From Agarophyton chilense (Eukaryota; Rhodophyta; Florideophyceae; Gracilariales; Gracilariaceae), in assembly GCA_030374765.1 (NCBI GenBank), contig JARGXX010000034.1:434001-498000 (forward strand): DNA of 64,000 nt. Reading direction: 5' to 3'. Numbering within the stretch: the stretch's first letter is position 1; each line of letters begins with the position of its first letter. Positions 22,303 to 64,000 of this stretch are shown here, in pieces. The translations under genes and the position numbers were made by a program. The notes below the pieces were generated by a model. It was not told the origin of the DNA. It was given only the letters and a program-made list of their open reading frames with translations, and did no database searches.

Positions 22303-22369
22303 AGACGAGGAAGAACATTCCGAGCCGCGGGTGTCTCGCGTTCCGGTCGCTATATATACTGCTCTCCCA

Positions 22370-36029: not shown

Positions 36030-36030
36030 C

Positions 36031-37470: not shown

Positions 37471-37475
37471 AACGG

Positions 37476-37483
37476 TATATAAG
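37476..37483 (+). promoter_or_regulatory. TATA box of secreted-protein gene copy 2
   Basis: TATATAAG about 95-100 bp upstream of the ATG at 37578. Mirror copy at 47880-47887 on the minus strand. Confidence 0.65.
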
Positions 37484-37577
37484 AGCCCCGTCACAGTGAA
37501 ATACAGCTTCTCATGTTATCCCATCACCCAAGTCGCCAAATCGTTCCCCAAAACACCCAGTTCTTCGAGCACTCACA

Positions 37578-40457: not shown

Positions 40458-40530
40458 TATGGTTCTGAGCTATGTTCTAGCGCATGGTCTTTCTAGCACG
40501 CAACGGAGCTAAAGTGCATTTGATATATAA

Positions 40531-41871
40531 TACCGCATTTCGTGAACACAGAACAAGAAATATGTCTTCTTTTAAAGCACTTGAGTCCGGCTTGGAAAAA
40601 AACTGCTGGAGAGAAATTGTAACAGGCAATGCTCATAGAAATGAATTATTTTAGAGATTGCAGTGTCTCCTATTATGATTTGAAAGAATATATATATGGT
40701 AGATGTTCAGAATGAAAGTCACATCAGCACAAGCTTTTAGAACCCATTCTATGTCATCGGTTTATCTCAAATATATTTGATTTCAATGCAGTTTTTCATT
40801 TCTATAAAGCCTAAAAGTTGACTTGAATAAATTATTCGCTCGCTTGGGAAAGCTACATCATAATGCTTGAATGGTAAGTTTCAGTCACACTGTTCCAGAA
40901 CGTTGACGTTTAGAGTCTCGTATTAAAGCACTTTTGTATCTGGTACGGCTAGAATGTTCAATTAATAGTGTAGTAAAAATGAAGGATATAAAGGGTGCTG
41001 GAGAGTGGACTCGAAGGTCCAAACAACTGACAAATCCTACGAAGAAGAACAGTGATTTACCTACAGCTGCTCGCACCACGGTACCTCAGATTGCACCGTC
41101 TCAGGTATTTTCATGACTGCGGTGGCTGGTATCTACAGCTCATAGCATCCCAGAAAGAAATGTTCAATTCACCAATGGCACGAGTTTGAATTTTCTTTGA
41201 AAGTGATCACGGAATCAGGCAATTGCATGAATGGCTTTTCAAGGGGCGAAGAAGATGTTTTCTCTTGCTGTGCGCATGATGACGTTTTGGGAAAGCAGTA
41301 CGGCCGACACAAAGATCTCAGTGTCACGATGACATTGACTGAGCATATGCACTAACATTGAATCAGGCACACGTATACAAATCCACGAGAAGACAGGATT
41401 GCAACCGAAACAGCACAGTGTCGGTTTAATTAGATCTATCGGTCCGATCTATGAATTCTCCGTCACACTCTGAATTCAAGAGACGTTGTACCCTGTCTAA
41501 ACCTAATAATCCATCCTCTTGAACACGATGCTGTGTTGGAAGTTACATCGCCTTCCGTGTGCCGTATTATCCCTGGTTTACACGTATCGTACCTCTCATC
41601 ATGCTTTTCTGATCGTTCCCCTTTACACACTTTCTTTAAGGTACAGTGGCTTGCAAGGCAACATTTGCTTTCTGCGGTGTGATCTGAGTATATCCACCTG
41701 CTTTCGAGTACAATATAGTCTTTAGTAAAATACCACTTAAACTGGTCTCCCGACTTAGAAAGAAGTACATTTGTGTAGAACAATTCGTCAACGGTACAAG
41801 AACTTTCGTGTTCAAGACATTAAATATCGTCTGCGAACGACAAAAGCTAAAATAGAGATTAATTGCAGGCA
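40531..41871. other. Inner part of left arm, no gene recognised
   Basis: Minus-strand frames of 64 (40885-41079), 106 (41463-41783) and 104 codons (41636-41950) have no known domain; a small, unknown protein cannot be excluded. It contains the PBS-like 18-mer at 41743-41760. The mirror segment is 43492-44830. Confidence 0.45.
41743..41760 (+). other. PBS-like 18-mer in left arm
   Basis: TGGTCTCCCGACTTAGAA, identical to the PBS of chromoviruses B and C, here without any recognisable LTR or gag. Mirror copy at 43603-43620. Confidence 0.7.
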
Positions 41872-43491: not shown

Positions 43492-43602
43492 TGCCTGCAA
43501 TTAATCTCTATTTTAGCTTTTGTCGTTCGCAGACGATATTTAATGTCTTGAACACGAAAGTTCTTGTACCGTTGACGAATTGTTCTACACAAATGTACTT
43601 CT

Positions 43603-43620
43603 TTCTAAGTCGGGAGACCA
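43603..43620 (-). other. PBS-like 18-mer in right arm
   Basis: TTCTAAGTCGGGAGACCA on the plus strand; mirror of 41743-41760. Confidence 0.7.
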
Positions 43621-44905
43621 GTTTAAGTGGTATTTTACTAAAGACTATATTGTACTCGAAAGCAGGTGGATATACTCAGATCACACCGCAGAAAGCAAAT
43701 GTTGCCTTGCAAGCCACTGTACCTTAAAGAAAGTGTGTAAAGGGGAACGATCAGAAAAGCATGATGAGAGGTACGATACGTGTAAACCAGGGATAATACG
43801 GCACACGGAAGGCGATGTAACTTCCAACACAGCATCGTGTTCAAGAGGATGGATTATTAGGTTTAGACAGGGTACAACGTCTCTTGAATTCAGAGTGTGA
43901 CGGAGAATTCATAGATCGGACCGATAGATCTAATTAAACCGACACTGTGCTGTTTCGGTTGCAATCCTGTCTTCTCGTGGATTTGTATACGTGTGCCTGA
44001 TTCAATGTTAGTGCATATGCTCAGTCAATGTCATCGTGACACTGAGATCTTTGTGTCGGCCGTACTGCTTTCCCAAAACGTCATCATGCGCACAGCAAGA
44101 GAAAACATCTTCTTCGCCCCTTGAAAAGCCATTCATGCAATTGCCTGATTCCGTGATCACTTTCAAAGAAAATTCAAACTCGTGCCATTGGTGAATTGAA
44201 CATTTCTTTCTGGGATGCTATGAGCTGTAGATACCAGCCACCGCAGTCATGAAAATACCTGAGACGGTGCAATCTGAGGTACCGTGGTGCGAGCAGCTGT
44301 AGGTAAATCACTGTTCTCCTTCGTAGGATTTGTCAGTTGTTTGGACCTTCGAGTCCACTCTCCAGCACCCTTTATATCCTTCATTTTTACTACACTATTA
44401 ATTGAACATTCTAGCCGTACCAGATACAAAAGTGCTTTAATACGAGACTCTAAACGTCAACGTTCTGGAACAGTGTGACTGAAACTTACCATTCAAGCAT
44501 TATGATGTAGCTTTCCCAAGCGAGCGAATAATTTATTCAAGTCAACTTTTAGGCTTTATAGAAATGAAAAACTGCATTGAAATCAAATATATTTGAGATA
44601 AACCGATGACATAGAATGGGTTCTAAAAGCTTGTGCTGATGTGACTTTCATTCTGAACATCTACCATATATATATTCTTTCAAATCATAATAGGAGACAC
44701 TGCAATCTCTAAAATAATTCATTTCTATGAGCATTGCCTGTTACAATTTCTCTCCAGCAGTTTTTTTCCAAGCCGGACTCAAGTGCTTTAAAAGAAGACA
44801 TATTTCTTGTTCTGTGTTCACGAAATGCGGTATTATATATCAAATGCACTTTAGCTCCGTTGCGTGCTAGAAAGACCATGCGCTAGAACATAGCTCAGAA
44901 CCATA

Positions 44906-45760
44906 ATGAATCTCACTGGGAATGTCTTAAACAACAGATGGACTGTTGGAACTCTTATAGGTTCTGGAGGGGCTGGAGCTGTCTACTTGGTAACTGATAG
45001 CACGAATAACGAAGAAGAGGCCGTTGTAAAATTTGGTGTGGCTTGTAATTTAGAAGTAGATTCGGACGATGAATATGATGCGCAGGAAGATGCCAAGGAT
45101 GACTTGGACAACGAACGAAAAATTTTATTAGACTTGAAAAGTAGAGCTCCAACTCTTTCCGTGCCAGAAGTGATTGAAAGTGGAATACATGAAGGTATTC
45201 CGTTTTTGATTATGACAAAATTTGGAGAATCTTTAGATGATCTTCACGAAAAGTCAGACTCTCCCTTTTTCAACAAAGAAATTCTGGTTGTCATCAAACA
45301 GATATTTAATATCATGAGAGCCCTTCACGGTCTGAACGTTAGCCACGGAGACATCAAAGAATCTAATATTGTCAGAGGTCTCGGGGAGCAAAAGGATAAT
45401 TTTTTTCTCATTGACTTTGGACAGTCTTCAAAGCGTGCATTTGATCCATCCAATGACGTGGGGGACTGGTTTCAATTGATGGTTCGGCTCTATCGAAATA
45501 GCGAGGAAGGCCTTGTGCCAACTGATCAGATTGGTGAGTATAATTGGAATGGATTAAGCAAAAAACAGTATCGAACAGTGTTGAATAACTTTCAGAAGGC
45601 TGTAGATGCTCGAAATGCAATAGGGGCACCGATACCCTCCGAAATTCAGGCCTTATTTCACGAGTCCCTCGGGCAATCACCTCCAGATTACGAAAGAATG
45701 AGCCTGCGGCTGCAACAAGCAATAGCCCGGACAGACCCCAGTGAGAAAGTTTTTGTGTAA
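44906..45760 (+). CDS. VRK/CK1-like protein kinase (right arm)
   Basis: Mirror copy of the gene at 39603-40457 with an identical 284-residue product: GSGGAGAVY, AVVKFG, HGDIKESNIV and LIDFGQS are all present. The upstream region, including the TATA-like stretch at about 44833-44841, is also duplicated, so both copies are probably expressed alike. Together with the secreted-protein gene it forms a convergent pair in each arm. Confidence 0.85.
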   Translation: MNLTGNVLNNRWTVGTLIGSGGAGAVYLVTDSTNNEEEAVVKFGVACNLEVDSDDEYDAQEDAKDDLDNERKILLDLKSRAPTLSVPEVIESGIHEGIPFLIMTKFGESLDDLHEKSDSPFFNKEILVVIKQIFNIMRALHGLNVSHGDIKESNIVRGLGEQKDNFFLIDFGQSSKRAFDPSNDVGDWFQLMVRLYRNSEEGLVPTDQIGEYNWNGLSKKQYRTVLNNFQKAVDARNAIGAPIPSEIQALFHESLGQSPPDYERMSLRLQQAIARTDPSEKVFV

Positions 45761-47116
45761 GAGAGTTTAAGACCGTTCGGGTGGTCGCTTTCCGCCCGAT
45801 ACGGAGGGCAAGGCGAGTCGGGATTTTTAATGTAGTCTAGTTTCTAGTCTAACTTAGTAGTCGTCAAAGCCGTTTGTAAAGCTGTTACGTAGCTTACAAT
45901 CTGAAAAATCCTTGTATTAAAACAATTCTTTTTTAGCGTAAATCTTAGTGAAAGGTCTCTCGTCACTCTCGCTCCGATAAATCCAAGATCGTTGCGCGTT
46001 GCTTTCCATTCAGCTGTATACTTGGTGCTGTAACAGAGATGATATTTAGCTTTGAATGAACTAGTCGACCTCTCACTCGTTGCAAAACTTCCCAAACTTT
46101 TCACGTCATCCCCTGGATTCAATAGAACGTAGACGTATCTGACTCTGCGTCACGATTCGCTTGGTCCTACAAAACAACTTTTTGCATCGGTAGAGCATTA
46201 TGAACTCACTGCGTTTGCCAAAGTGTTGAACATCTTAACGAACCAAATCCGAAGAAGTGTTGTTTGCACGGGCTGCACAGAAGCGAAGTGTAACGTAATT
46301 AGTGTAACGTAGCTCGTCTAGCTGTTCGACTACTCGTTAAAGACCATAAGAGTGCGCAACGTAGATATTTTTACTTATGCCAGCAATTCTAGACGACGTA
46401 TGGAGCGCAACTGTGCCACCCACGAAGTTTTAGGTAGCAATCTAGGTTTTCAAATAATATGTTGACCAAACGCAGTCTTGTGGAACCCAACCCACGCTGT
46501 TGAATTCAACGCTCCCCGAACTGCGGGAGCTACACAATAAAAGCCCCGCTCTTCTGAGAAGCCCTGGAAAAGAGAGATGCAGCTTGGGAAGCAGCCTGCC
46601 AAGGAATTTTCGTGCCTGTTCTTTGCGCCTTTCTCAACAGCACGCGTAGGCTCTCGTGCGCCGTAGCGTTTGCGAGCAACAGAGACAACTGTTAGAACAC
46701 AAAACCAGATGACAGTTTAAACCGAACCACCGTCTGGAGTACAGTAGTTCGGTGTGGCATAACAGCTCCTGCGGTTTCTATAAACGTCTAGCCTACAGAC
46801 TACTACCAAAGTAAAAGGATAACCAGCTTACCTCCCGACTCGGGCGGGCAGGCGTCGACCACCCGGATTCTGTTCCTCTCTTTCGAAATCTTCCTCCCCT
46901 CCGATCCGCTCATCTGTGCATTTGTGCGCATACACGTATGCTTTATGGCGCAAAGCCTCTCTTTTATCGTAGTGCAACATAAATCATGTTCATAAATATG
47001 GAAAGTCATCTAGATATTTAAAGGATGGTACGCAAAAGTTGATCTCGTAGGGACTAACATTTTTCAGACAGGCATTTGCATTTCCTTTCTGCCCCGTTTT
47101 CCCATCAGGCACAAAT

Positions 47117-47785
47117 TTAAGCTTGAAGAGTGAATCTGGTGTGGTGCTGAGCGCTGACAATCTCAACAGTTCCAACTTCTGTCGCAGCGCAGCCAGATTG
47201 GGTCGCAGGGCTGACGGTTGAGGACAATAGGGCGCCAGGGACAGCTGCGCCATCAGACTTCCTTCTCAAAGAGGCCTTGAGAGTCACATTTCCTTCGTCT
47301 TCACTTCCATGCCATCCGGCGAGAGCAGCGACAGCAGTGGATCCAGACCACTTACCATCGGCAAGAGCACCGGCAATGTCCACGACGACAGTTTCCTTAC
47401 CTCCATAGCTTGTGTCATCTCCACCGAAGTCAAGATAGGCAGTATCCGGGCTACAAGAAAATCCAACATTTCCAGTCAGGAACCGGGTGCTCGTATCCAG
47501 ATCGGACTGGCTCTCACTCCATGAGTACTCCAAGACGAGTTCAACCAGCGGCAGATGAACGTTGGGGATCATGAACGAATCTTCGGGCAGCTCACAGGCA
47601 AATCCATTCTGGGGGACTGAGCATGAGGAGACGGCGCAGACGGCGCGAGTGACGGGGTTGTTGCATTCACGCACGGATGTGGCACGGTTGGGGTTGCATC
47701 GATTGGGGCATATGTCAACAGTGTTTTGCGCCATGGCCCAAGCGGCCAAAGACAAGAGAACGGTGGAAGCGAAGAAAGATTTCAT
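47117..47785 (-). CDS. Secreted cysteine-rich protein, copy 3 (right arm)
   Basis: Mirror copy of 37578-38246, identical 222-residue product with signal peptide and eight mature cysteines. The TATA box TATATAAG at 47880-47887 (minus) lies about 95 bp upstream. The sequence upstream of it, near 48031 and 48060, holds two of the few differences between the arms. Confidence 0.88.
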   Translation of the reverse strand: MKSFFASTVLLSLAAWAMAQNTVDICPNRCNPNRATSVRECNNPVTRAVCAVSSCSVPQNGFACELPEDSFMIPNVHLPLVELVLEYSWSESQSDLDTSTRFLTGNVGFSCSPDTAYLDFGGDDTSYGGKETVVVDIAGALADGKWSGSTAVAALAGWHGSEDEGNVTLKASLRRKSDGAAVPGALLSSTVSPATQSGCAATEVGTVEIVSAQHHTRFTLQA

Positions 47786-49335
47786 TGTGAGTGCTCGAAG
47801 AACTGGGTGTTTTGGGGAACGATTTGGCGACTTGGGTGATGGGATAACATGAGAAGCTGTATTTCACTGTGACGGGGCTCTTATATACCGTTTCTGTTCG
47901 GGTAATGGGTCCCACATGAAGGATACTGTTTCTCAGATCCATGATACTAAAAACAGAGTTGGAGGAAGCGAAGCATTCCGGAGCACGACAACAAATGTGG
48001 TTGCGTTGGAGAGCCAAGGGGGCAGCAATGAGAAGCGGGTATGTAGGAACGCATTAAATGGTCTTTCATAACAGTGACGATGCTTGGTTGGGTTTTGTTG
48101 GGTCAATTTGAACTCTACCTGATCTCTGGTCAACCCGGCACCCTTACTACCCGTACTGACGAACGATCGTTCCGGACATTCATATTTATTTCTTCATTGG
48201 CCTATCTTTGGGATAACTGAAAAGTTAAAACAAAACTTTTGTGGGACGTGTGCTCTTTGATGTCTCAAGCCCGTATCTTTTTGACATTGTAACGTTGTAT
48301 TCCTACTGTACTTCGCAGCTCGGACTTTTAATAGAACACTGCGTTATAAAAGCAGAGCAAACCACCTGTTTTGCACTCAAGACAAATATCGACCACTGTC
48401 CACATCACCTTGTGCGTTGCAATGTACATAGATTGTCTTTCATGTAACCAGAGCAAGCTGTTGGAGATATGAAGTGTGCGCCACACACTTTGGGCATTGT
48501 CGGTAGTACAACGAAGGATCCCCACTATGGAACAACACTAATGCTCGTCGTATCTATTGAAAAGCACTCGAAACATTTTTCACGCACAAGCCAGTATCAG
48601 CAACATCCAACGCAGTCCTCGCCAGATATCCTGGTGGGCAACGTTTTCACCAGTACGGATGTCTTTGTGTATGCCGGGCAATCAGCAGCTCGTTTACGTC
48701 CCAGCAGTACTTTCCGAGCACCTCCTCTTGTGTACTGGTTACTATTTTTACGGTTTCACCAAGCAGATCTTTGTGCTCTGCTGGCACCGGCAGGACTACA
48801 GAGAGCTTCTGCTCGGCGCTTTATGATGTAGCACCAGATCTTCCAGCATCAAGAACAGGCGATGGCCTTTAGCGGGGAAGAGTTGGGGCAGAAAAGACCC
48901 GACGAGTGACTTGAGTTCGAGGCGCGGATACACTCTTTACAAATGCGGCATCGGTAGATGTCCAGCGGTGTCGACTATTATCAGTAGCGCGGCGGGGTTG
49001 CCCTTTCACCTACAAATAATTTATTTAATGCGCTACCTATTACACTGTTTTCCCCGACTGTTGATACAAGAACCGGCTCAGTTGTTTCTTGTTGTCGTGA
49101 GGGTAGTGCCAGTAAGTGTATGATGATAGGAAGGCTTCATCTCAAGGAGAAGTACCCGGAGCCCAAACCCTACGTGTGTAGCGGCCTCTGTGACAATAAG
49201 CGCGTCTTACTATTGGTGTAAAACTTTACGGCCGCCCTGATGATGAAAGGGAGGATAGGACTGCAAGGCTTCTCCTAGAATGCTTTACCCTGTCTTAATG
49301 GGAAAGGACAGGCAGACCTTTTAAGCAGTTCGTCG

Positions 49336-49769
49336 CTTTGGTGGCAACTTAATCGTTTGGGAAATACGCTATTGCAAGGAGAAGTTTGTAGAACAATCTA
49401 CCGCCCCCCGCTTGGAAAGAAACAAGGACGCAACAGATAAATGGCTAACATTCACACCACTCGAGGCATGATTCATGCGCCAAGTTCTGCACACCGACTC
49501 ACAGCACCACTTTGCAACCACGGCACAGGCGAAAATCGCTTTGACTAGCCCATGCACTTCTGTAATTTGCGGCCTAGGCGATCCCCATCATCTGGCCGCT
49601 AGCAAGATGATCCTAGAAAGAAGAACATGGATAAAAGAACCGCAAAGTCGTTTACTGATCAGGTCTACCTAACCCTAAGCGGCAAGCAGCGGATGATACT
49701 GAACCACTCCGTCAATTCGCCAAATTGAAAGCCTTCTTCGACAACGAGAGTGATTTAGAAATCCCACGT
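49336..49769. other. Unique flank right of the inverted duplication
   Basis: Two short frames (49369-49557 minus, 49475-49672 plus) without known domains. No gene recognised. Confidence 0.5.
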
Positions 49770-50228: not shown

Positions 50229-51500
50229 TCACCCTCTCTTAGAACTTGACGACCGCGGCAAATTTTCAAAGTCTTTGATGAGCTCGGCACAATTTGCCAA
50301 CTCGTTCTTGTTCACCCAGATTGCCTCCTCTTGTGCATTACCTTCGAACTGTACCAAATACTGTCTTCTGCGATTGAATTTTCCAGTGTCCAAGATAGGA
50401 ATCACTTCTTGTTCCACTGTACCTTTCGCATCAATAACTATAGATAGTGACTCGGTATTACCCTCTAGTCGTTTAAACATCCGTAATCGAGATACATGAA
50501 AAATATTATGTGCTTTCTTCATTGCGGGTGGTAGTTCAATCTTGTAGGTGACCGGTCCCATGACTTGCTTTACCGAAAACGGTCCCATAAACTTTGGTTG
50601 CCATTTCCTTGCAAGTCCAACTTGCGTGAACGCATTTGTGCTCTCGGTCTTGAGCAACACCAAATCTCTTACCTCAAACTCCACATGGTTCCGTTTCTGA
50701 TTTGCATAAAAAGTTGGACGTGCAATAGCGATGGTCAAATTATTCTTGGCCAACGTACAAAAAGCTTGTCGTCTTTCCAAATAGTTCACGGCCGCTGGAA
50801 AGATAGTATCTGTTCTCGAAAACTTTCTTGAGAGTTCTGACTCTGGTACCCGTCCTATGTCTACTTCGAACTGCGTTACCCCTGTACTCTTGTTTGGTGC
50901 TGAGTTGTAAAAAAATTCCAGTTCAGTCAACATAGAGTCCCACTGTTCGGGATTCTTCTGTACCCTACCTCGGATCATTTCTGAGAGAGTCCTGACCATG
51001 TTTTCGGACTGACCATCTGTTTGGGGATGTCCCTTTGTAGCCATATTGAGATCGACACTCAACATCTTCGTGATGTCTTTGCAGTAATGTGACTTGAATA
51101 GTTTGTCCCTATCCAAGATGATGGTCTTCGGACCTCCTTGTTTAGAAAAAACGTGATCAAACCACAATTGTACAACATCCATTGAATTTAGAGTCTTCTT
51201 TGTAGGTATAAATATTGCTCTCTTTGAAAGTTTCTCGACTACAACCAGCACTGAGTCGTTCCCTGTGCGAGACATCGGAAATTCTGAAAGAAAATCCATT
51301 GAGATGACATCCTAACTTGCTTCTGGAACTTGATGTGGCTGGAGGTTTCCATTCTGTAGTGTTCTTGACTCTTTCTTGAACTGGCACGCTTCACAATGTC
51401 TGACAAACTCCTGAATGTCTCCGAACATGCGCTTCCAGAAAACAATGTTATGAGCAAAGCAAATATGTCTTTTCCCACCCGAAATGTCCAAGTAGATGGA
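50229..51500 (-). pseudogene. Integrase and chromodomain of chromovirus E (left half)
   Basis: From 51500 the frame gives the end of the integrase zinc finger (FVRHCEACQFKK). The piece 51299-50229 (356 codons) has the core (MDFLSEFPMS, ILDRDKLF, DGQSENMVRTL) and then a chromodomain-like tail (RRQYLVQFEGNAQEEAIWV). A TAG-type stop near 51312 separates the two. The stop codon TGA at 50229-50231 lies inside the purine-rich tract, one base from the 3' LTR. It belongs to a lineage different from A-C; no convergent accessory ORF is present. The upstream half is interrupted by element C. Confidence 0.88.
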
Positions 51501-51502
51501 AA

Positions 51503-52169
51503 TGTAGTATCCGCTCTAACGGAGAGAGAAGACACCTGCGACAGCGTTCGGACTGCCGATGGGTCGCTTGCGGCGAAGTTAAAGCGGTGGTAGAGCTACA
51601 ACACCAGCGAGCTGGAAGTGGGGTGTAAGGCCACTACTCGCCAGCGAGGGTGAACAGTGCAACTGTAAAATGTTGATGGAACGTAGGTACGAGACGGCTC
51701 GTGAAGTGGTTGGGGGCTGACTATCTATTATGGCTCTTCCGGATCTCCAGTTAAGGAATCCTAAGCGAGGAACAGAATAGTCATGATGCCCATGTTGTCT
51801 CCTTTACTTGGAGTCGGTGCTCACCTCTGGTGCACTATATACTGTGTGCCAGGGTGAGTGCCCAAATAAATATATAAATAATACACAGTGGTCAGCCACT
51901 TAGCCAAACCACAGTATGGGTATGGTCCCTAATGGACGTCTAGCTACAAAGGGTAGTAAAACCAGCCACGTGGATCGCCACTACATGCGCCGTTGCAAGC
52001 CAATCCACTCGTGATGCCACGTGTTCCACTAATGTACCCTGCCTCCTGGCATTCTACGCGGTGTGCCGTTTCATATCACAAGTTTGATGACATCACTCAC
52101 TTATGAGTTCCAACCGCGATTTCGCGAAAAATCATCCTATCGGATTCCCCGACATAGTAGAATACTACA
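51503..52169 (-). repeat. 3' LTR of chromovirus C
   Basis: 667 bp, TGTAGTATCC to GAATACTACA. On its inner side follows TACCCCCCTCG, the complement of a short G-rich polypurine tract. Confidence 0.93.
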
Positions 52170-52193
52170 TACCCCCCTCGTTAAGCGCAAACC

Positions 52194-54020
52194 ATGGGGG
52201 ACGCAAGAAGCGTTTATACGCAGTCGGACCGGTGTTCCGGGTACTCATCGTCATCACGAATTCCTCGCCGCACGACCAACTCCTACAGTTCTCAACAGCA
52301 TTCTGTTCCTCACCGCTCTTCAGCTCGATCTTTCCCGATGGATCCGAACGCCGGGTACAACCCGTTTCAGCCCTCCTCTGAGGATGTGCCTTCTGGGGCT
52401 CCGTCAAACACTGCTGGTTCTGCGTCGCAGCCTACTGCTCAACTCGGTCCATACCGTTCGTTCCCCACCCCGTACACCGGATTCCGGTCGGTACCGTTAC
52501 CTCAGCCAACCGTGGCTCGGATGCCGAACGCGGCTTACGTCGCCTCTGCGGGTGTGATTCGAGCTCCTTCTCGTCGTGCTCAGCGGAGCTACCCGCACCG
52601 TGCGGAATTCTATGGACGAGATCCTCTCGACAACGTTGAACTTTTCGCGCAAGCGCCCTGGTTTGATACAGTTGCTATCCGCGATGACGCGTTGATACAA
52701 CAGTATGTACACGGTGGGTACTTCCCTGACGGTATTCCGGAACACCCGATTCATAGCGACGACTGGGCGAGCCATATTGCTTTGCCAGACAACGCGATTG
52801 CGCGATATTCAACGGAAACCTTATCCGAAGCCCGTACGCGGTTCACCAAGCTGATTTACCAGCGTCTTCACGGATTCATCAGTACGGTTCTCCTCCCGCA
52901 GGACTGGGAACTGGATACCTGGAAAGCCCGTACTGACGGTGAAGGTTACTCGTATATCGAGACACTCGTTGAAGTCGATGTTAGCGGTTGGCGCGGTGTG
53001 CGCGGTGGGCGTGATCCAGCTCTCTGCTTTCAGCAACCTCTTCTCCGTGCGGAGTTTCGCTTCCTTCGAAAGAGTGACATTCCCTATTGGGATTATCCCC
53101 GTTGGGAACGTCGTACTCGATCACGTTTGGGCTATTTGGTGCCGTATCACATGATCGAGATTGACTGCATCCGGCGGAACGCGCGCTTCGGGCCCTACGT
53201 CGGTATTCCGGAGCATTCGGTGGCGATGGAGAGTCCTCGTGGTTGCCCTGTGGAGCTCCCACCGGCGATCTCCTACATCGGGTCCGCGTTGGTTAACGAC
53301 CCGTTCTCGGGATATTGGACGGTGGTTTATACCGAGTTTATCGCCAAGATGGCCGTGTTCTTCCTGTGGGATGCTTATGATACCTTTAGAGTTTGGTACA
53401 TGTCGCCCACAGGGCGAAAGTATGCGAGAGAATTCGATCTTTCCCTTGTCCTGGGATCCTGTGCGAACCATGCCGACTTCCTCCATCTTGTGGATGTAAT
53501 CGACGGTGTCGACTGGTCTGGAGTGCCAGCTGATCAATCCGCTCGCGGAACCCGTGCAAGACACTACGACCATTCTCCTGGACGAGCAGCAAGTGCTGGA
53601 GATTTCGTTTGGTACGACCCCTGGACGCGCCAGTTGATCACCTCCGAGCAGGCTCGCTTTCTTCGGGAGAACCCGCGTGACATGCCACCGAACCAGCTTA
53701 CTGGATACGTGTACGATGCTACTCCATCCGAGAACGGAGAGGAACCATGTGAGGAAGCGCCGGGAGCTGAGGCTGAACTCGGTTACGAGGACGAGCAAGA
53801 GCTGGCAGGCGTATCGACTTCCGTCGATCAATCCGCAGCGGCGGGAGTAGCTCAAGAGTACTCTCATGGGTTTACCCAACAACCAAGTGCAGTGCCGGTC
53901 GAAGATCCAGGCTTGGATCCGCTGAGGCAGTTCTTCTTAGATGCGGGCTTTCCCGTGGACCAAGTTGAGGGTGATCGCGCACAACTTCTTGCGAACCTGT
54001 GTGCTCGCACGTCTCTTTGA
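52194..54020 (+). CDS. Convergent accessory ORF of chromovirus C (intact)
   Basis: 608 codons, uninterrupted, on the strand opposite to gag-pol. It starts 25 bp inside the 3' LTR at accATGg; a second in-frame ATG (MDPNAGYNPF) is codon 49 and may be the true start. Residues 1-110 are Ser/Pro-rich and probably disordered. The conserved core runs from about 110 to 520: NAAYVASAGVIRAP, FAQAPWF and RDDALIQQY, LIYQRLHGF, EFRFLRKSDIPYWDYPRWER, SRLGYLVPY, ELPPAISYIGS, DPFSGYW, FLWDAYDTFRVWY, DHSPGR, AGDFVWYDPW, LTGYVYD. An acidic Glu-rich stretch follows. Aromatic residues are frequent. No signal peptide, membrane helix, nuclease or protease motif was recognised. Relatives are at 7.2-8.7, 22.4-24.2 and 17.2-18.1 kb. 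It ends 336 bp before the pol stop. Expression would need an antisense promoter in the LTR. An env-like role is not supported; function unknown. Confidence 0.88.
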   Translation: MGDARSVYTQSDRCSGYSSSSRIPRRTTNSYSSQQHSVPHRSSARSFPMDPNAGYNPFQPSSEDVPSGAPSNTAGSASQPTAQLGPYRSFPTPYTGFRSVPLPQPTVARMPNAAYVASAGVIRAPSRRAQRSYPHRAEFYGRDPLDNVELFAQAPWFDTVAIRDDALIQQYVHGGYFPDGIPEHPIHSDDWASHIALPDNAIARYSTETLSEARTRFTKLIYQRLHGFISTVLLPQDWELDTWKARTDGEGYSYIETLVEVDVSGWRGVRGGRDPALCFQQPLLRAEFRFLRKSDIPYWDYPRWERRTRSRLGYLVPYHMIEIDCIRRNARFGPYVGIPEHSVAMESPRGCPVELPPAISYIGSALVNDPFSGYWTVVYTEFIAKMAVFFLWDAYDTFRVWYMSPTGRKYAREFDLSLVLGSCANHADFLHLVDVIDGVDWSGVPADQSARGTRARHYDHSPGRAASAGDFVWYDPWTRQLITSEQARFLRENPRDMPPNQLTGYVYDATPSENGEEPCEEAPGAEAELGYEDEQELAGVSTSVDQSAAAGVAQEYSHGFTQQPSAVPVEDPGLDPLRQFFLDAGFPVDQVEGDRAQLLANLCARTSL

Positions 54021-54099
54021 TAATCCTAGAAAAGACTCCTAGTCAACACACTTGCCGTGATATCTTGATGCCAATAAAACTCAGATGACTTCGTGTCTT

Positions 54100-54250
54100 C
54101 AGATTCCCTTCTTATCTTCTAGTCTTCATCTCTTCTCGCTTCTCGAGTTCTTCAATCATCTTTTCTCGCTTCTCGAGTTCTTCAATCCTTCTTTTCTCGC
54201 TTCTCGAGTTCTTCAATCCTTCTTCTCTCGCTTCTCGAGTTCTTCCTAGG
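54100..54250. repeat. Pyrimidine-rich minisatellite between accessory ORF and pol (C)
   Basis: About four copies of a roughly 30-bp unit around TTCTCGCTTCTCGAGTTCTT between 54132 and 54246, purine-rich on the element strand. Equivalent tracts in A and B lack the regular repeats. Confidence 0.8.
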
Positions 54251-54355: not shown

Positions 54356-57300
54356 TTAGAAATGGGATGTGCCCATGAGCCGTACTATCGAGGAGTCGAT
54401 CTCCCTGGGGAGTGGTAATCGCATGCGTCGATGATATCGCACGAGTTGCGAACGGGGGATATGAGCTATAGGTTCCCACGTATCCGCTTCCGGAGGAAAA
54501 CCGTACCAACGGACTCGATACAGTAATTTTCTGGTATCTTCATGCTCGTCATGTTCACATATGCGATCCACAACATATTCCTGGGCGTTTCCCAATGCTT
54601 TCGCTGTTGGCGCGAGACTCCTGTTAACAGGTTTGAAATGCCTTAGGGCTGACCCAAGCATCTCTGTGTTAGCAGTCTCCGCGTCTCTAAGCGTTCGCTC
54701 GTCGACTAACTGTCGTTCTGCCCGCAGGGGCAGTGTACTCATTCCTTGAGAACCTTTCTCAGATAAAGAGCAATCCTGTTTTCCAGGTTCCATAGAAGCG
54801 TACTTCTTGCTACTTCTCAATTCCATTCGTGGATGAACTTCCTTCGGTTTATCCGATTCTGACCGCTGTTGGGTGGACGATGGTGCTTGCAACACGACAG
54901 GAGGTGATAATTCTTCTTCTTCCTGCCCACGAGGGATGGGAGCCGATATCGGCGGAACAGCGAGTGGCGCTTCACCTGACGGTTCAGCCTGAAGCGGCAA
55001 CAGCGCGTTTTCGCGTGCACTCGTTTCCAAGTCTTTGGGGCCAAATTCCAAAACATCTTTCCTGCTTTCAGGTTCCATTTCTGTACTTACGGGTGTGTGC
55101 GTGCCACGGGGCATATTCCGATATTTCGGAAGCTGTCCGTGATTGGCGTACGCAACCGCCGGCGGTGGCAGATCAGCAGCTTTCTCCTCCGCTCGAGCCA
55201 TTGGTGGCGGTTCACTCTCCTCAGAATCACTTGGGCTTTTGCCTTGACGTTCCGTCGCAATTGCCTCCTTAGTTCTACCAGATACCTGGACTTCCACTTG
55301 AGGGTCAGGTGCGAATTCAACGCGATCGCGCGATACACGTTCGACGTCCTCACCTATCTTGATGACCACTGTTTCTTCATCAAGGTCCACAACTTTGAAG
55401 GGTCCAGCCGCTATCGGCAACAACTTATGACGAGATTCTTCCTGTTTGTCCGGTCTTTCAACTCGCACGAAGACGTGACCTCCTACTCGAATTGCCGGAT
55501 TTCCTCTTCGCCTTCTGACGTCATAGTTTCGCTTATAGCGAGCTTGCGTTTTCGATAACTCTTTAGCGGCTTCTTCCGCTCTGGCCTTCAGGTCATTCCT
55601 CCATTTCAGATGGTACTTAGCCGGGATCGGCGCGTCCAATTCTGTCTCGTCGTCGAGCGCAACCGGTAAAGCCGGAGGGTTACGTGAGAGCACGAGGTCG
55701 AACGGTGCCGTCTTTGTAGAGGTATGCATTTGCGTATTGTACGCGTAGCACAGAGTATCAGTAAACATGTCCCATTCTTTAGGGTGGTCCGCGATGTAGT
55801 GTCGTAATGCTGCTATCAGCGTGCGGTTGAAACGCTCCACCTGACCGTTGCATGGCGGATGATAGGTCATCGTAAACAAGTTTCGAACGCCCATAATGCG
55901 GCAAACATTCTGAAAGAACTTCGCAACGAATTGCTTCCCATTATCTGATAACAGAACTTCTGGTGGTCCGTATATAAATACCCAGTGTTTGATAAACGCA
56001 TGTGCGATTACGGTTGCGGTTATCCGCTTCAGCGGCACAGTCCGCACTAGCTTCGAGAAGCGGTCGGTGATTACCAATAGGTAGCGATCACCTCGCCTTG
56101 AGCGAATCAATTCCCCTAGGATGTCGATACTGACGTATTGTAAAGGCGCTTTCGCCTGGAATAACTTCATCGGTTTCCGCTTCCTGTAAAGCTTCACGCG
56201 ATTCTTCGCACATGTTGTGCACAACCTCACTGTAGCATGGCATTCCATTGCCAAAGTAGGCCAGTAAAATCTCTTCTTGGACGCATGAACAACTTCGTTC
56301 CTCCTGGATGACCAGACAGCCTGCTGTAGTGTGTCAGATGCAGTACTCGACTCTTCAAGACCTGTGGAATCACGATTTGATCATGCTTTTCCACATGTCT
56401 TAACAGTATTCCTCGTGAATCGAGTGAAAAGGGGAGCTCCTCCCCCCCGTTACGACGAGAGCGTATCGACGCACAAAACGTATCGGCGTGTTGCTCATTG
56501 AGGAGCTCAGTGCACGAGATTCGCTCGAGTTGAACTTAAGGGTCAGTGTCTGCTAATGCAAGAAACGGGTCTGCATCCGAATAATCATCAAGGGTCTCTT
56601 GTTCCTCTTCTTCAAAAGATAGTGAATGGGTCTCCATGTAGAAGCAAGGTATCTCTTCATCGATTTCGCCTTGGGTTTCGCCCAGTGTTTTGAGTCGCGA
56701 TAGCGCGTCAGCTTGGACATTGGCCAATCCCTTCTTATACTTCACTTCGAAATCGAATTCAGAAAGGCGTAAGCGCCATCGTGTGAGACGACCAGACGGG
56801 TCTGTAATGGACAGTAACCATCGTAGAGACGAATGATCCGTGTTGATGGTAAAACGTTCTCCTTGGAGATACGGTCGCAATGTGGTTAGAACCCAAACGA
56901 CTGCAAGGCATTCCTTTTCTGAAACTGAATACTTCTTCTCAGCTGCGTTCAGCGATCTTGACCAGTAACCGATGGGTTTGCGTTCACCATCAGGGTGTGT
57001 TTGAAAAAGGGCACACCCTACTTGGTACTAGCTAGAGTCGGTATCCACTGAGTATGGCAGGTTGGGGATGGGCAGCACCAAGACTGGGGCTGTAATAATC
57101 TTTGTCTTCAGCGTGTCGAACGCTTCCACTTCAGCTTGTCTGAATTGTTCCAGCTGTACTGGTTGTCCTTTACGCAGCTTTGCGTTGAGCGGTGCCGCTA
57201 TATGCGAGTATCGCGGCACGAATCGTCGGTAGACGTTGCACAAGCTGAGGAAAGAACGCAATTGCTTCTGTGTCGACGGAGGTTGTACTTCGCGGAGAGC

Positions 57301-59184
57301 CGCTGTCTGTGCCTCTTGAATGGCAAGCTGTCCTGGCTTGATCACGTGTCCTAAGTACCGGACGGTGCCAGCGAACCATTCGCATTTCTTGAACTTCAAG
57401 GTGATACCTGCGCTCTGTAGTGCTTTGAGGATCTCCTCGACATGCCGTAAATGGCTTTCCACATCCTGGGAAAAGATGATCACATCGTCCAAATAGACTA
57501 AACAAGTCTTCCACTTGTATCTTGAGAGCAAGATGTCCAGAGTACGCTGGAAAGTAGCCGGTGCATTCGTTAAGCCAAAGGGCATCCTTTCGAAACGGTA
57601 GAGACCGGCGTGACAAGCAAATGCGGTTTTGTCTTGGTCTTCTTCCGCTACAGGCACCTGCCAATAGCCAGAGTTGGCGTCCAACGTGGTGAACACTTTC
57701 GCTTCTCCTAAGCTGTCCATACATTCGTCCATTCGAGGCAACGGGTATGTATCCCGAACTGTAACTGCGTTCAGTTTTCGATATTCGATACAGAATCATA
57801 AAGAACCGTCAGGTTTTGGAACCAGCACCACTGGTGGGGCCCAAGCAGATTGAGCTGCTTCGATTACTCCTTCTTCCAGCATTTTTCTGACATTCTCCTC
57901 CTCTATTTGGCGAGTTCGCGGTCCCGCGCTGTAGGGTGGTTGGGAGATGGGTCGTGACCCTGGGACCAAATCAATGTGGTGTTCCGTAGCGGAGATCTCT
58001 CCTAGTTTTCCACTCCACATGGATTTATACTTCTTCAGCATAGACCTGATCTTCGTTCTGTAGTGTTCCAGCACATGTGCTAAGTCTATCTCATCGACCA
58101 GGCTCTCTGGATCCTTTGCCGTTTGCAATTGATCTCCAGACGGAGTTTGCGGTTCTTCGTCTGTGTCACCGACATGGGTTAATCCCAATACTTCTGCAGT
58201 AGAAATATGAGTAGGGACCACCACTGTGGGATGACGCAAAGCTGTTGCAACAACCTGATTCTTCGGTATCTGATAATCGTTATCGGTGAAGTTACTCACT
58301 AGTATCCAAAAGGGGCTACCAGGATCAACCTGAACAATGCCGTTAGCGACTAGCAATTGACGAGATTCGTACATCCGAGTATTCGGTTGAATTACCACGA
58401 GTCCGTGTCGTTCTGTTCTTACTTGAACCCAAGTTTGGGTTTGTGCCTTCGGCATGGCAATCTTCGCTACTCGAATCCTCGGCGAGACACGTCCTCGGGA
58501 TTTCCCGTATTCCACAGATGGTGGAAGTGGAGGTGCTTCGGGGCAACGACGCATTGGCTCGCGAACAATTGGTACCATTGACCCATCATATAGTTCCACT
58601 AGTTTTCTTCGCGGGCGAATGGCTTCGACAAACTTGTCGCAATAATCACATCCCAGTACCACTGGTGCAGCTAATGTCTTACAGACAATGAAGTCGACTA
58701 GGACTACAAAGCGTCCCAAACGCACCACAAGTCGGACTGTTCCCAGTGTCTTCACAACATTTTTGTTAGCATCCCGGATGTCCGGTAAAGGACCGTATCG
58801 AATACGTTCTAAGTCAGCAGGAGCGAGCTCCGATTCCCGTATAAAGTTCGGACCAGCATTTGTATCCAGGATATTCAATCGACGAGATAACGGATTCCTG
58901 TCGGAGCCGATGTCGGCATAGACCTTATACTTTCTTTTAGATACTACCATGAGGTAACTTTCCCGTTTTGACGGACAAGTATAACGTCTCCAAGAACGAT
59001 GTGACTCACAGTCAAACTGTACTCGCTTTCCGTCCGGCGGATTGATTCCGTACGTCGGAAATTTGGGAAGCCTCAAGAGAATCTTGGGCTTCCCAGCGCG
59101 GGAGCAGGGAGGCGAGCTCTCCCTGGTCAGCACTACGAGATCGACTAGTGCCGACCCCCTAGGGGCTCCCTCACTTAGTTTTCC
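54356..59184 (-). pseudogene. Pol of chromovirus C (PR-RT-RNase H-IN-chromodomain, broken)
   Basis: The -1 frame opens at the gag stop and is read without an ATG. 59133-57796 contains the protease (NILDTNAGPNFI, the usual Gly after DT replaced by Asn) and the start of RT. TGA at 57796-57798 replaces the Arg codon of SLRFC. 57741-57028 holds RT with YLDDVIIFS and the start of RNase H, cut by TAG at 57028-57030 (DTDSS). The same frame continues through 56880-56536 (NTDHSSLRWL) to TAA. A one-base loss near 56262, in a T run before the Trp of RDFYWP, shifts the frame. 56254-54356 (632 codons) then has the integrase with VSIDILGEL, LLSDNGKQF and QVERFNRTL, and ends with a chromodomain (YRVRWYGFPPEADTWEPI). 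Three stops and one shift make it inactive. Confidence 0.92.
59175..59184 (-). promoter_or_regulatory. -1 frameshift-type site, gag/pol of C
   Basis: The element strand reads GGAAAAC directly before the gag TAA; the -1 frame is open into pol (LSEGAPRGSAL). Position and sequence match the sites in A (GGGAAAC) and B (GAAAAAC). Confidence 0.65.
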
Positions 59185-61328
59185 GGTTGCACCGGCTGCT
59201 TCGCCTCAAAGGCGCCTCTTCCTACCGCGGTTCCGGGTTGTAACACTTCAGCATTCTGAGCAACCGGCTTGTCCGTCCGGCGCATTGGTGTCCGAGAAAA
59301 CCAACTTTTGGCTTTCAAATACATGCCCGCCGGTACGCGGCTCCTTTCCTCTTCTGAGAGTGCTTCATAATTCGTCATGATACGACTCAGATCCTTTGCA
59401 GGAAGCGTGCATTCTGCACTCAAATGGTTTTTTCCATAACATGAATAACATATCAAACCGTCACGACGGTTGGTCAACATATGTTGTGAACGGTATGCCG
59501 TGCGAGTATCCACCCATCCGGGCTTCCCGTTCTTAAAACCTCCTTGTGGTGGCACCGTGTAGGGACGGTACATAGGGCGACGGCCCTCCATAGCCATTAG
59601 GGCTTCCTCTTCCTAAGACTTCGAGTGTGGGAGATCCACTGTAGGTACAGAAGAGTCCGTATATTCCATTAAATGGACCGCCTCCTCATGCGAGTCACTT
59701 CCTTTGGGTGCCAACGACAAATCTCACGAGTCAACTGGAGATTCCAAATGTAGCAGTTTGCTGCGCTGATTAACTCTTGCGGAGATCTTCTACTTACCCA
59801 TTGAGGTTCCAAAAGCCACTGAACGACGGGGGCTACCACGCGCTCTGGCCGCGTCTCCTTCAGCTTTCGCAAACTGAACTAACTCCAAAAAGAAGACTCT
59901 TCCATGCTTCTCTCGATATTGAGCTACCAACGACTTCATGCTCGGGTCCAGCCCGTCGATGTACAAGGTAATCTTCTCCTCCGTCGAGTGGACGTTTCCA
60001 CAGCGAACTGAAGCTTTGGTAAGCATTGAGCTGTACTCAGCTTCGCCCTCCTAAGGCCTTTGGGTCACATGCCTTAGGTCTAGAATCGCCTGACGTATCG
60101 CTTTTGAAGTCGCGTAACTGCGCACCAAATACTGCACCGCCTCTGGCCATGAGGTAACGCCGCCTTCATCGGCTGTCAATGATCCGCAAACGGGACGATA
60201 TTGCTCTAAAGCAAAACCCTTCAGGAAGTGTGGTAAAGACACAAATGCCTGTGGTTCACTCATCTCTAGAGTGTCTGCTTCGGCAACGAATCGAGTGAGA
60301 AACTCGACAACGAGAATGGGGGGTTTTCCCATCAAATGTTAAATCATTAAGGCCGATCTTCAATCGTTTGATGTGATCCTTCACCTCCGCGGTTTCGCGT
60401 CCTGAGCGCTTCTTGCTCTTCACCTTCAGACGGTAGTACCTGTAATTCAAGAGCTTCCGATGAAGCGGATTCGTGCACGGGAGCACCTTCAATCCTCTGT
60501 AAGGTGAGCCTTTTTTCTCATTAACCATGAAGACGTGTTCTTCTTCCGAGATAGGGACCTTCGATGACCATCATCACTGTCGTCGTCATCTGACGTATCT
60601 GAATCATCAGAATCATCAGTACTAAAACTGAAGTGCTCCGTACTTGACGATTCATCACTCGAATCACGTGCGGACTTCCGCTTGTTACGTCGTGACTTCG
60701 ACTTCTTCGAACGAGCTTCCTTCAAAGGAGCTCCTTCCTCTTCCAGCACGACTGGTTTAGCAGCAGTCTGCGCATAAACTGCCGCCCCCAGGCGTTCTAA
60801 ACGAGGTTGAACTCGAGTGAGGACTTCCTCTACATCCACGGTTAAGCCGGGTAGCGCATCGGGCGTATTCCCATACCTCTCCAGTAGAGGATTCAAATCC
60901 TCACGTATTGTTTTCACTGATTCAGAGACCTGCTTCCCATCGTTTTGACGAACGAGTGCTTGATGTGCACTGCGTAATCGTTCTACATCAGCGATAAGAG
61001 CAGCGATCTGCGATTCCAACGCAACCATGCGCACACGCGAAGCGCTTGACTCAGACTTAAGACGATGCACTTCCCTGCGCAAATCATCCTCTTCTTGAGG
61101 TCCGACGACCTCAGGGTCAACTACGGCTTCTGTGGTGGGCGTGACTGCCGCTGCCATAGGGGCCGGTACATCCAAGAGATCTCGTTCATCATTCACCGAG
61201 CGTGAGCGCGACATCGCTAAACGATACAGCCGCTCTCCGGCTTCAACAGGTGAGGTGAGCCTCGGTTTCGGGGGTGGTCCCGCAGGACCGGGGCGACCAG
61301 TACTCGACTGGCTTCGGGTCTTCGGCAT
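59175..61328 (-). pseudogene. Gag of chromovirus C (broken)
   Basis: Start ATG at 61328 (MPKTRSQSSTGRPG); the frame is also open upstream to 61394. 61328-60489 encodes the Pro-rich head, a coiled-coil-like region (LESQIAALIADVERL) and an acidic Ser/Asp tract. Shifts lead to 60528-60256 (PLHRKLLNYRYYRLK) and 60335-60051 (VEFLTRFVAEADTLEM, SLPHFLKGFALEQY). A TAG at 60051-60053 follows, and the same frame continues 60026-59790 (DGLDPSMKSLVAQYREKH). 59597-59175 carries the zinc knuckle CYSCYGKNHLSAEC (CX2CX4HX4C). Structural protein of the particle; broken by shifts and stops. Confidence 0.88.
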
Positions 61329-61523
61329 CCTAGACCAAACCTGAGTCCAGGTGCGAACTAAATGTTGTCTTCGACTTCTCGACCACGTGTTCAACCACTA
61401 TTAATTCCGCAATTGCCGGAGGTGGTTTGATAAACCAGAACTGTAGTGATTCCACTTCTTCCAAGTATCGATATTGATGCCACGTTCCAGGAGCGAATTG
61501 TTCAGTGCAGCTGACCACAGTGG

Positions 61524-61543: not shown

Positions 61544-62259
61544 TGTAGTATCCGCTCTAACGGAGAGAGCAGACACCTGCGACAACGTTCGGACTGCCGA
61601 TAGGTCGCTTGTGGCGAAGGAAAAGGGGTGGTAGAGCTACAACACCAGCGAGCTGGAAGTGGGGTGTAAGGCCACTACTCGCCATCGAAGGTGAACAGTG
61701 CAACTGTAAAACGTTGATGGAACGTAGGTACGAGACGGCTCGTGAAGTGGTTGGGGGCTGACTATCTATTATGGCTCTTCCGGATCTCCAGTTAAGGAAT
61801 CCTAAGCGAGGAACAGAATAGTCATGATGCCCATGTGGTCTCCTTTACTTGGAGTCGGTGCTCACCTCTGGTGCACTATATACTGTGTCCCAGGGTGAGT
61901 GCCCAAATTAATATATAAATAGTACCCAGTGGTCAGCCACTTAGCCAAACCACAGTATGGGTATCGTCCCTAATGGACGTCTAGCTACAAAGGGTAGTAA
62001 AACCTGCCACGTGGATCGCCACTACATGCGCCGTTGCCAATATGGCATTCCCTTAGGTAGGGTCGCAACTATGCGCGCGCCGTGGTAAGCCACTCGACCC
62101 ATGACGCCACGTGTTCCACTAAGACATTCTGCCTCTAGGCATCCTATGCGGGATACCTTTTCATATCAAAATTCTGATGATAACACACACTTATGAGTTC
62201 AAACCGCGACTTCGCGAAAAACCAACCTATCGGATTCCCCGACATAGTAGAATACTTCA
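61544..62259 (-). repeat. 5' LTR of chromovirus C
   Basis: 716 bp. It carries about 50 bp (around 62038-62090) not present in the left LTR. Confidence 0.92.
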
Positions 62260-64000
62260 CAAACATTACATCCGATGATGGATGCCGTAGAACTGGTGCA
62301 GTTGTCAGCCTGTGTTTCAACTCTTTAAATGCGATCTTCTGTTCTCCTTCCCATTGGAAGTTCTTGGAACGAAGAAGATCAGTTATTGGGCGTGCCAATT
62401 GTGCAAAACCTCTTTTGAACCTTCGATAGAAGTTTGCCAGTCCTAAAAACCTTTGCAACTCCTTCAGTGATTTTGGCGATGGCCACTTTTTTACACATTC
62501 TACCAGCCTTTGCTGCGTGTGAACGCCTTCTGCATTTATCTTAAAGCCAAGGTAGTCCACCTCTGTAACCCCAAAGCTGCTCTTGCTCGGTATGATGTAC
62601 AGCTTATGTTCTCTTAAGATCTTGAAGAGTTTTCGTAAATGCCGTCTGTGTTCTTCTTCGTTGCTACTGTAGATGAGGATATCATCTAAGTAAAGAACCA
62701 TGCATTCTCCATGAAGCTCACGAAGCAAATGTGCTAATAGACGCGAAAACGCTGCCGGTGCGTTAGTCAATCCAAAACACAAGACTCTCCACTCGAACGA
62801 TCCATATCTAGTTCGTATTGCGGTTTTGTGACAGTCTTTTTCATTGAGCCTTCTTTGTTGGTAACCCCAAATTAGGTCAATCTGTGAGAAGAGTTGGGCT
62901 CCTGCTACTTGATCAATAGTCTCATTGATCAACGGAATAGGACTTGCATCTGGAATGGTAATCTTATTCAATGCTCTGTAGTCACAAACCATTCGAAGAT
63001 CTCCATTTTTCTTCTTAATGAAGAAGACTGGAGCTCCGTGCGGCGAAGACGAAGGTCTGAGAAGTCCTTTTTTCTAGTATTTCTGCAATTGGCGCTTGCG
63101 TTCCTGCAACTCACGAGGTGAAAGTCTGATTACAGGCCGAACAGGAGGTTGGGTGCCTGGTATGAGTTTGATTTCGATTTCCATCCCGCGTGGCGGGGGT
63201 AACTCATCAGGTAATTCTTCCTTAAAAACATCTTCGAACTCAGATCACGCCTCTCGAAATTTAGGCGTGCACTTTGCTTCAGACACTACGGACTATTTAT
63301 TCCTAGATACTCGGACTGCGAACAGTTCGCATTCTCCCTTCTTGAATTCTCTACACATCTTTTTTAGCGATATCTGTTTGAAACAAATTTTCTTTGATAC
63401 AGAGTCCTTCTTGGTTCTTGGAGCTATCGTTACCACAGTACCATTACTGCGTTTGACTTTGAGTACATTGGTTTGCCAATCAATGTGAGGGTTGTGCTCT
63501 CGTAGCCATGGTCTTCCCAATATGAGAATCGGAACCCCACTGTCTTCCTTCATGTTGATGACCAAGATTTGTTCCTTGCCCAAAAACCCCTTGATGTTCA
63601 ACATCGCCTGGGCTTCACCAAGTACTCTCGTCTTCGATGAGTCTCCAAGTTCAACTTCCACACCTGTGATGTCATTCAGCAACAAGTTCAATCTCCTCGC
63701 GTGCTGTACTGACATAAAGTTGTGCGATGCGTAGGAATCAACCACTGTCTTCACTGGATGCCCTGCTATAATTCCATCGTACATCCAGTTGTCTTGTTCT
63801 GCATACCTTAATGCAGAAAGGTAAGGCAACTCACCCAACAAATTGCCTTCGGAAGCCGCACCTGAGTGATCACTATTTTTTTGAGTGATCGTAGCTCTTG
63901 TCCTCAGCCCTTTCTTTTCTGCAAGAGTGGCCTGGATCACTACATCTCTTCATTCCGCACTTAAAGAATCTATCATTCATTCTTCCTGTATAAAACAACC
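62260..64000 (-). pseudogene. Protease and reverse transcriptase of chromovirus E (right half)
   Basis: 63940-63293 encodes a retropepsin domain with VVDSYASHNF in place of the usual DSGA or DTGA motif, and ends with a TAA at 63293-63295. The same frame continues through a TAG at 63074-63076 into RT: APVFFIKKKNGDLRMVCDYRALN, CFGLTNAPAAFSRLL, LYLDDILIYSS, FLGLANFYRRF. It breaks off at the very start of RNase H (HPSSDVMFV), at the LTR of element C. The left half of the same kind of element (integrase on) resumes at 51500. Most of RNase H is therefore missing. The region right of 63940 should be the end of gag, but I see no clear zinc knuckle in the same frame. Confidence 0.88.

Follow-up and report, generated by a model that had tools for sequence, protein, structure and literature searches.

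The window analysed here, a stretch of 64,000 nucleotides that forms part of contig C34 of Agarophyton chilense, contains three LTR retrotransposons (A, B, and C), each with a long open reading frame (ORF) that runs antisense to gag-pol in the space separating pol from the 3′ LTR. This raises the question of whether a red-algal retrotransposon lineage has an additional gene read in antisense, or whether the frame arose in some other way. We consider it likely that the antisense ORF is a third, accessory gene of a large red-algal Ty3/gypsy (chromovirus) lineage, located between pol and the 3′ LTR, with an antisense mRNA of its own, and serving the element. The genome searched comprises 80 Mb in 135 contigs.

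Host elements and position of the antisense ORF

Element C lies on the minus strand and contains, between two LTRs, a gag-like frame, a 5′ pol frame, reverse transcriptase (RT), integrase, and chromodomain, in this order. Its parts, and the antisense ORF with its surroundings, are as follows.

51503–52169, minus strand: 3′ LTR of C, the presumed source of the antisense promoter
52170–52180, minus strand: polypurine tract of C, recognised from sequence and lying between the antisense ORF and the 3′ LTR; its minus-strand sequence is CGAGGGGGGTA
52194–52337, plus strand: in-frame stretch upstream of the likely start, with the alternative ATG 52194; probably a 5′ leader
52338–54020, plus strand: antisense ORF of C from its probable true start (conserved M(N/D)P); 560 amino acids, intact
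54073–54078, plus strand: AATAAA, a polyadenylation-type signal, 55 nt past the first base of the antisense stop codon
54356–56254, minus strand: pol of C with the integrase core plus the chromodomain, converging on the antisense ORF
57028–57741, minus strand: pol of C, reverse transcriptase
57796–59133, minus strand: 5′ part of pol of C, without a Pfam match, aligning to the pol frame of B
60489–61394, minus strand: gag-like frame of C, assigned by its position and coiled-coil-like look, with no family above the cut-off
61544–62259, minus strand: 5′ LTR of C

Elements A and B share the plan of C; the LTRs differ, and the primer-binding region is nearly identical.

21379–22288, minus strand: 3′ LTR of B (5′ LTR at 32225–33141)
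22499–24226, plus strand: antisense ORF of B, with a single stop at 22751–22753
25432–29964, minus strand: pol of B (RT, RNase H, integrase)
6419–7036, minus strand: 3′ LTR of A (5′ LTR at 16609–17226)
7270–8726, plus strand: antisense ORF of A, decayed, in four open pieces
9453–13012, minus strand: pol of A, in pieces (chromodomain, integrase, RT)

RVT_1 and rve matched in A, B, and C, with RT preceding integrase by position, and by these domains all three are Ty3/gypsy elements. The earlier note had assigned them to a chromovirus family. The assignment stands for C and A, where an integrase core is accompanied, at the integrase C-terminus, by a chromodomain (PF00385; E 4e-10 in C and 4.7e-7 in A), but is weak for B, with no chromodomain in the window frame 25432–27027 and just a sub-cut-off score of 0.0024 in a second copy (L010). 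The sequences flanking B (AAACG/AAATG) were read as a decayed 5-bp duplication, and no clean target-site duplication was seen by eye at the flanks of C. Pieces of another Ty3/gypsy element, recognised by eye, flank C at 50229–51299 and 62144–63940, with an integrase-like frame on one side and RT-like and protease-like frames on the other; C seems to have been inserted into this element.

In C, the plus-strand frame runs without interruption from 52185 to 54017. Counted from the ATG at 52194, 24 bp from the 3′ LTR (51503–52169), to the stop codon at 54018–54020, it has 608 codons. Pol ends at 54356, 335 bp from this stop; the two genes thus face each other without overlap. The frame of B (22304–24223) is interrupted solely at 22751–22753, and the open pieces of A are located at 7270–7728, 7724–7972, 7962–8159, and 8163–8726; these frame checks bear out the earlier description of an ORF intact in C, with one stop in B, and in pieces in A. 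In one open copy each of C, B, and two further families described below (D and E), the five other frames contain 6–26 stops and the antisense frame none.

The location of the ORF between the 3′ LTR and pol, convergent to the latter, was likewise confirmed in all three elements; what has to be revised is the start, previously placed at 52194. Inward of that ATG, the open copies of families C, B, D, and E have a start in common, M(N/D)P or MSN, which lies at 52338 in C and at 22499 in B. Among 30 B copies, omega is near neutral upstream of the conserved ATG (~0.97 and 0.99, on small counts), and is ~0.56 for shared and ~0.69 for single-copy changes downstream of it. Since the upstream stretch in B looks neutral and the downstream stretch does not, the coding part probably starts at the conserved M(N/D)P, i.e., at ATG 52338 rather than 52194 in C, where the substitution counts upstream of 52338 are too small to tell neutral from constrained.

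Between the antisense ORF and pol of C lie short tandem repeats (54129–54245) with a unit of about 60 bp, rich in CTTCTCGAG. Tandem repeats in the corresponding region are reported for plant Retand elements in the description given by PMC11963269.

Copies and families

Searches of the genome scored, near full-length, at least 72 places with the C protein and at least 88 with the B protein. These are the best-scoring places, found with the ORF itself as the query, and both numbers are lower bounds because each query had about 1800 first-look candidates. Stop-free among the scored places, as counted from the tables, were 17 C-like ones (four of them identical) and 57 B-like ones. An LTR and the end of pol adjoin the ORF in 29 of the 30 B loci and 23 of the 25 C loci fetched; the 30th B locus has an integrase by Pfam, and the two remaining C loci were fetched too short. 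Two more queries, P0005 and P0007, revealed the further families E and D. A profile search of a 5.8-billion-protein set yielded 19 proteins: 10 from Agarophyton chilense, one from Gracilariopsis chorda (BWQ96_08668), and 8 from lgn/ena assemblies. A lack of homologues outside the window would, according to the earlier note, have counted against the family; such homologues were found in the same genome, in G. chorda, and in other assemblies.

Three copies of the C ORF (C114:2872–4695, C115:2606–4429, and C115:49186–51009) encode a protein 100% identical to that of the window copy, and their DNA is 99.98–100% identical, including the 30 bp outside the LTR that set the limit of the comparison. 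Two of the three are near contig ends. This suggests that the identical copies on C114 and C115 may be segmental or assembly duplications, not new insertions.

Selection on the antisense ORF

Between families, dN/dS of the antisense ORF is 0.124 and 0.145 for C–D (two C copies), 0.130 and 0.145 for C–E, and 0.206, 0.120, 0.171, and 0.149 for the four pieces of A compared with C; these omegas are rough, because between-family dS is near saturation (1.2–3.4 in these comparisons, for the most part 1.5–3.4), and it is saturated or undefined for pairs with B and some others. The corresponding A–C values for pol are 0.126 (integrase), 0.134 (RT), 0.119 (mid-pol), and 0.227 (the chromodomain piece). 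Third codon positions of the antisense ORF differ by 0.53–0.62 between families, and first and second positions by 0.18–0.36; in pairs with saturated dS, the third positions are still far more changed than the first and second ones. By this substitution pattern, the antisense ORF is under purifying selection between families, about as strong as that on pol. Since between-family dN/dS matches that of pol and the other five frames are closed, the ORF, as judged from its codons, is a real gene of the element on a par with pol. Constraint approximately equal to that on integrase and RT, between families of one genome, is evidence that the antisense ORF serves the element. A simple chance ORF is ruled out by dN/dS.

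For the recent history of C alone, there is no measurable constraint on the antisense ORF. Among 24 C copies, omega for changes seen in a single copy is 1.06 in the ORF, 1.03 in integrase, and 1.18 in the LTR read as coding. For shared changes it is ~1.03 in the ORF (126 non-synonymous, 52 synonymous), 0.66 in minus frame 0, and 0.64 in integrase, and the pairwise values are 0.77, 0.70, and 0.59, respectively. Openness was one ground for choosing the copies, and site counts follow the window coordinates, which hides insertions present in other copies. The sets exclude L057 (internal duplication), L002–L004 (equal or almost equal in sequence to the copy in the window), and L007/L008 (the same places as L039/L052).

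We considered the near-neutral C copies as evidence against function and rejected it, since changes confined to one copy mainly reflect post-insertion decay (singletons of integrase, too, are at ~1.03). The earlier note had named dN/dS near 1 between copies as an argument against its proposal. Such values are approached among the young C copies (0.77 pairwise, ~1.0 for shared changes), whereas between families dN/dS is ~0.15; the young copies do not refute the proposal, because values near 1 are expected after insertion and the between-family value is that low.

The antisense protein and its origin

The protein had been reported as belonging to no recognised family, and this holds: there was no credible Pfam match at default or relaxed thresholds and no sequence match in PDB. 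Structure prediction, suggested earlier as a check, gave AlphaFold models (17 and 15 sequences) of modest confidence, with pLDDT 60.9 and pTM 0.50, and 67.2 and 0.58 for the core alone; with models of this confidence, no credible fold match came out. A mostly helical conserved core, spanning roughly residues 83–460, is predicted, together with an acidic linker and a small helical motif at the C-terminus, each with a pI of 4.1. The Pro/Ser-rich N-terminus (pI 10.1), modelled with very low confidence, is probably disordered. Conserved blocks of the core are APWF, ERRxRSRxGYLVPY, PRGC.ELPP, SGYW, LWDAYD..R.WY, SPGR, and GDFVWYDPW. Among nine members, E3_binding scored weakly in four (best E 0.029) and Ish1 in one (0.092); with C-terminal pieces alone, Ish1 scored 0.17, likewise weak, in one of four. 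These weak scores hint at a C-terminal motif of the helix-extended-helix type (HeH/SAP/LEM/E3-binding-like).

It is improbable that the ORF began as a host gene which an ancestral element took up and has since carried along as a passenger or a host-derived modulator. Gene transduction is one of the discussed origins of extra ORFs, although the review in question argues, in its treatment of antisense ones, against it (PMC7264820). The relative in G. chorda is entered at NCBI as an ordinary hypothetical protein on a 145-kb contig, which fits a host gene. On the other hand, the ORF is part of an element at 29 of 30 B loci and at 23 of 25 C loci, it evolves like pol between families, and neither a Pfam family nor a recognisable host protein turned up among the matches. 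For the captured fragment that the earlier note had allowed for, the searches gave no host gene as a source.

We regard as less probable still, and decidedly unlikely, that the protein is a diverged form of the angiosperm antisense protein TRP28 (Transposase_28, PF04195), the antisense gene then being ancestral to plants and red algae. Position and orientation are the same, and, to the eye, conserved G, P, L, P/N, and F positions follow one another in roughly the way described for TRP28 in PMC11963269. However, PF04195 was not listed at E ≤ 10 for any member scanned (hmmscan of 9 + 7 proteins, in which HMMER filters drop most matches above 0.1), and in the genome it was listed just once, below the cut-off and in a stretch that has no relation to the antisense ORF. 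Moreover, TRP28 is reported from flowering plants only, in the account of its distribution in PMC11963269.

Candidate transcription and polyadenylation signals

The AATAAA that follows the antisense stop of C is present in 24 of 24 aligned C copies. The same signal lies 36 nt downstream of the stop in one D copy and 82 nt downstream in one F copy (family F is described below); it is absent from 400 nt downstream in one B copy and 288 nt downstream in one E copy. Since AATAAA occurs just past the stop in C, D, and F copies, the ORF may, by its position and these signals, have a separate antisense mRNA that ends before pol. Upstream, a TATA-like sequence of the TATATATA type precedes the start by 148 nt in the B copy L010, and the pattern fits just 18 of 30 B copies. 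Near the start, the copies of C, D, E, and F showed no TATA-like box, and in C, such a box is confined to the LTR. Because the TATA-like pattern fits only part of the B copies and is LTR-confined in C, an antisense promoter is something that we infer: transcription would begin in or beside the U3 part of the 3′ LTR and run inward through the ORF.

Such a transcript could itself be the functional product, e.g., in small-RNA control of the element, with the reading frame incidental, but we think this very unlikely. Non-coding antisense LTR transcripts are reported for other elements in the relevant part of PMC7264820, and within C the antisense frame shows no excess constraint; against this, the between-family codon-position pattern and dN/dS of ~0.12–0.21 fit the antisense frame, the other five frames are closed, and the frame is constrained within B.

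Least credible of all, and already refuted by stops, is a reading in which pol shares its strand with an env-like sense gene and the antisense ORF is the shadow of that gene. A 253-codon minus-strand ORF does overlap the antisense ORF at 53121–53882; of the frames compared within C, the one it uses, minus 0, gives the lowest omega for shared changes (0.66), and minus 1 shows pN below pS between families. But minus 0 is interrupted by 6 stops in the C copy, 8 in the B copy, 9 in the D copy, and 16 in the E copy; within C, 7 of its shared changes are stops, and its pN exceeds its pS when families are compared (C–D 0.43/0.38). Minus 1 contains 19–26 stops and a signal weaker than that of the antisense frame (C–D 0.34/0.64 vs 0.32/0.74), its low pN/pS arising because third positions are shared with the antisense frame.

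If the ORF is an accessory gene of the element, as we prefer, its protein would act in trans in the element's own cycle, in replication or regulation. It might be a regulator or adaptor, likened in role and not in ancestry to Grande gene23, the Retand TRP28 proteins, and HBZ, the antisense gene of HTLV. A nuclear or regulatory role is a guess by analogy with these.

A distant family

The window contains one more sequence related to the antisense ORF.

17222–18067, minus strand: 281-codon ORF with the F fragment (17227–18067), which ends at the LTR of A and is putatively a distant homologue of the antisense ORF

With F as the query, 138 places were scored in the genome. In L066, the one F copy fetched with context, a 748-codon frame lies on the strand opposite to a convergent integrase; no chromodomain was found at E ≤ 0.01 in the two F pieces tested. 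An hhalign comparison of F (two sequences) with the A–E-type alignment gave E 1.4e-7 at probability 94, and a second run 2.4e-6 at probability 89; the window fragment alone gave E 4e-4 at probability 35. In controls, the best of 60 column shuffles reached 0.07, the reversed comparison 0.11, and nine unrelated window proteins 0.06–0.8. The HMMER profile alone placed F at E 0.26. On these profile scores, F is taken as a true distant homologue of the A–E antisense ORFs, the two sequences being the weak point.

If this relationship holds, the antisense arrangement is old and stable. Tentatively, and with considerable doubt, we put forward a wider proposal, namely that the antisense protein represents a superfamily whose antisense orientation predates the deep split between two Ty3/gypsy lineages of red algae, A–E and F, and that it has been passed on together with pol from then on. 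On this view, the coding plan of these elements would long have included antisense accessory genes that selection requires, rather than acquiring them through late and local captures; their red-algal origin would be independent of, or, less likely, common with, the angiosperm and fungal ones.

An inverted repeat (9101–9444 and 18960–19303; 88% complementary over 344 nt) joins the spacer between the antisense ORF and pol of A with the region past the F fragment.

Comparison with known antisense ORFs

Additional ORFs that lie in antisense between pol and the 3′ LTR form a known class (aORF-3R/eORF-3′R), which includes those of maize Grande, rice RIRE2, Retand, PvRetro13, and the fungal Boty; as characterised in the pertinent sections of PMC7264820, they are kept in most copies and are mostly without a known protein family. 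The red-algal ORF has the orientation, location, and length of the class, being antisense to gag-pol, located between pol and the 3′ LTR, and at least 250 codons long. It resembles Grande gene23, RIRE2, PvRetro13, and Boty in belonging to a Ty3/gypsy element, in orientation, and in location, as these are outlined in PMC7264820; it differs from the class in its red-algal host and chromodomain element, and the likeness to gene23, RIRE2, PvRetro13, and Boty is one of description. That antisense ORFs are known in plant elements had been stated in the earlier note, and the cases of Grande, RIRE2, Retand, and PvRetro13 agree with this (PMC7264820, where it lists them); therefore the kind is known and only the family is new. 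Grande gene23 is reported to be transcribed and nuclear, according to its entry in PMC7264820, whereas the red-algal ORF is known here from sequence alone.

In Retand, 97% of clusters encode TRP28, by the count cited from PMC11963269. Retand is, however, a non-chromovirus lineage of eudicots and Liliopsida, and its PF04195 has no match here. Tekay of sunflower and grasses, in the portion of PMC11728184 that deals with it, is likewise a chromovirus with a conserved extra ORF, but the Tekay 5′aORF (in sunflower, ORF(+)) sits 5′ of gag-pol, whereas the red-algal ORF is 3′ and antisense. In HTLV, according to a citation in PMC7264820, the 3′ LTR harbours a promoter for antisense transcription; HTLV is an infectious retrovirus, and no sequence relation is claimed. 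A survey of plant elements from 2019 describes eORF proteins as highly divergent and of doubtful function, and its main text, as far as accessible, makes no mention of Rhodophyta or Chondrus (PMC6317226).

Searches of openly licensed PMC full text turned up no description of the protein family, of a red-algal gene of this sort, or of its pairing with a chromodomain element. The architecture is already known, and the protein family, by its sequence, appears to be new. The high copy number and the many open copies make the function of antisense retrotransposon genes testable, and Agarophyton can be cultured.

Other features of the window

A minus-strand frame at 2–4036 was recognised, by motifs alone, as a copia-type polyprotein. 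Between B and C lies a very large inverted repeat (36025–41871 and 43492–49340), whose arms are 100% complementary (4567 + 1279 nt); it is either a recent palindrome or an assembly artefact. Each arm contains one protein kinase gene and one gene for a small, probably secreted protein.
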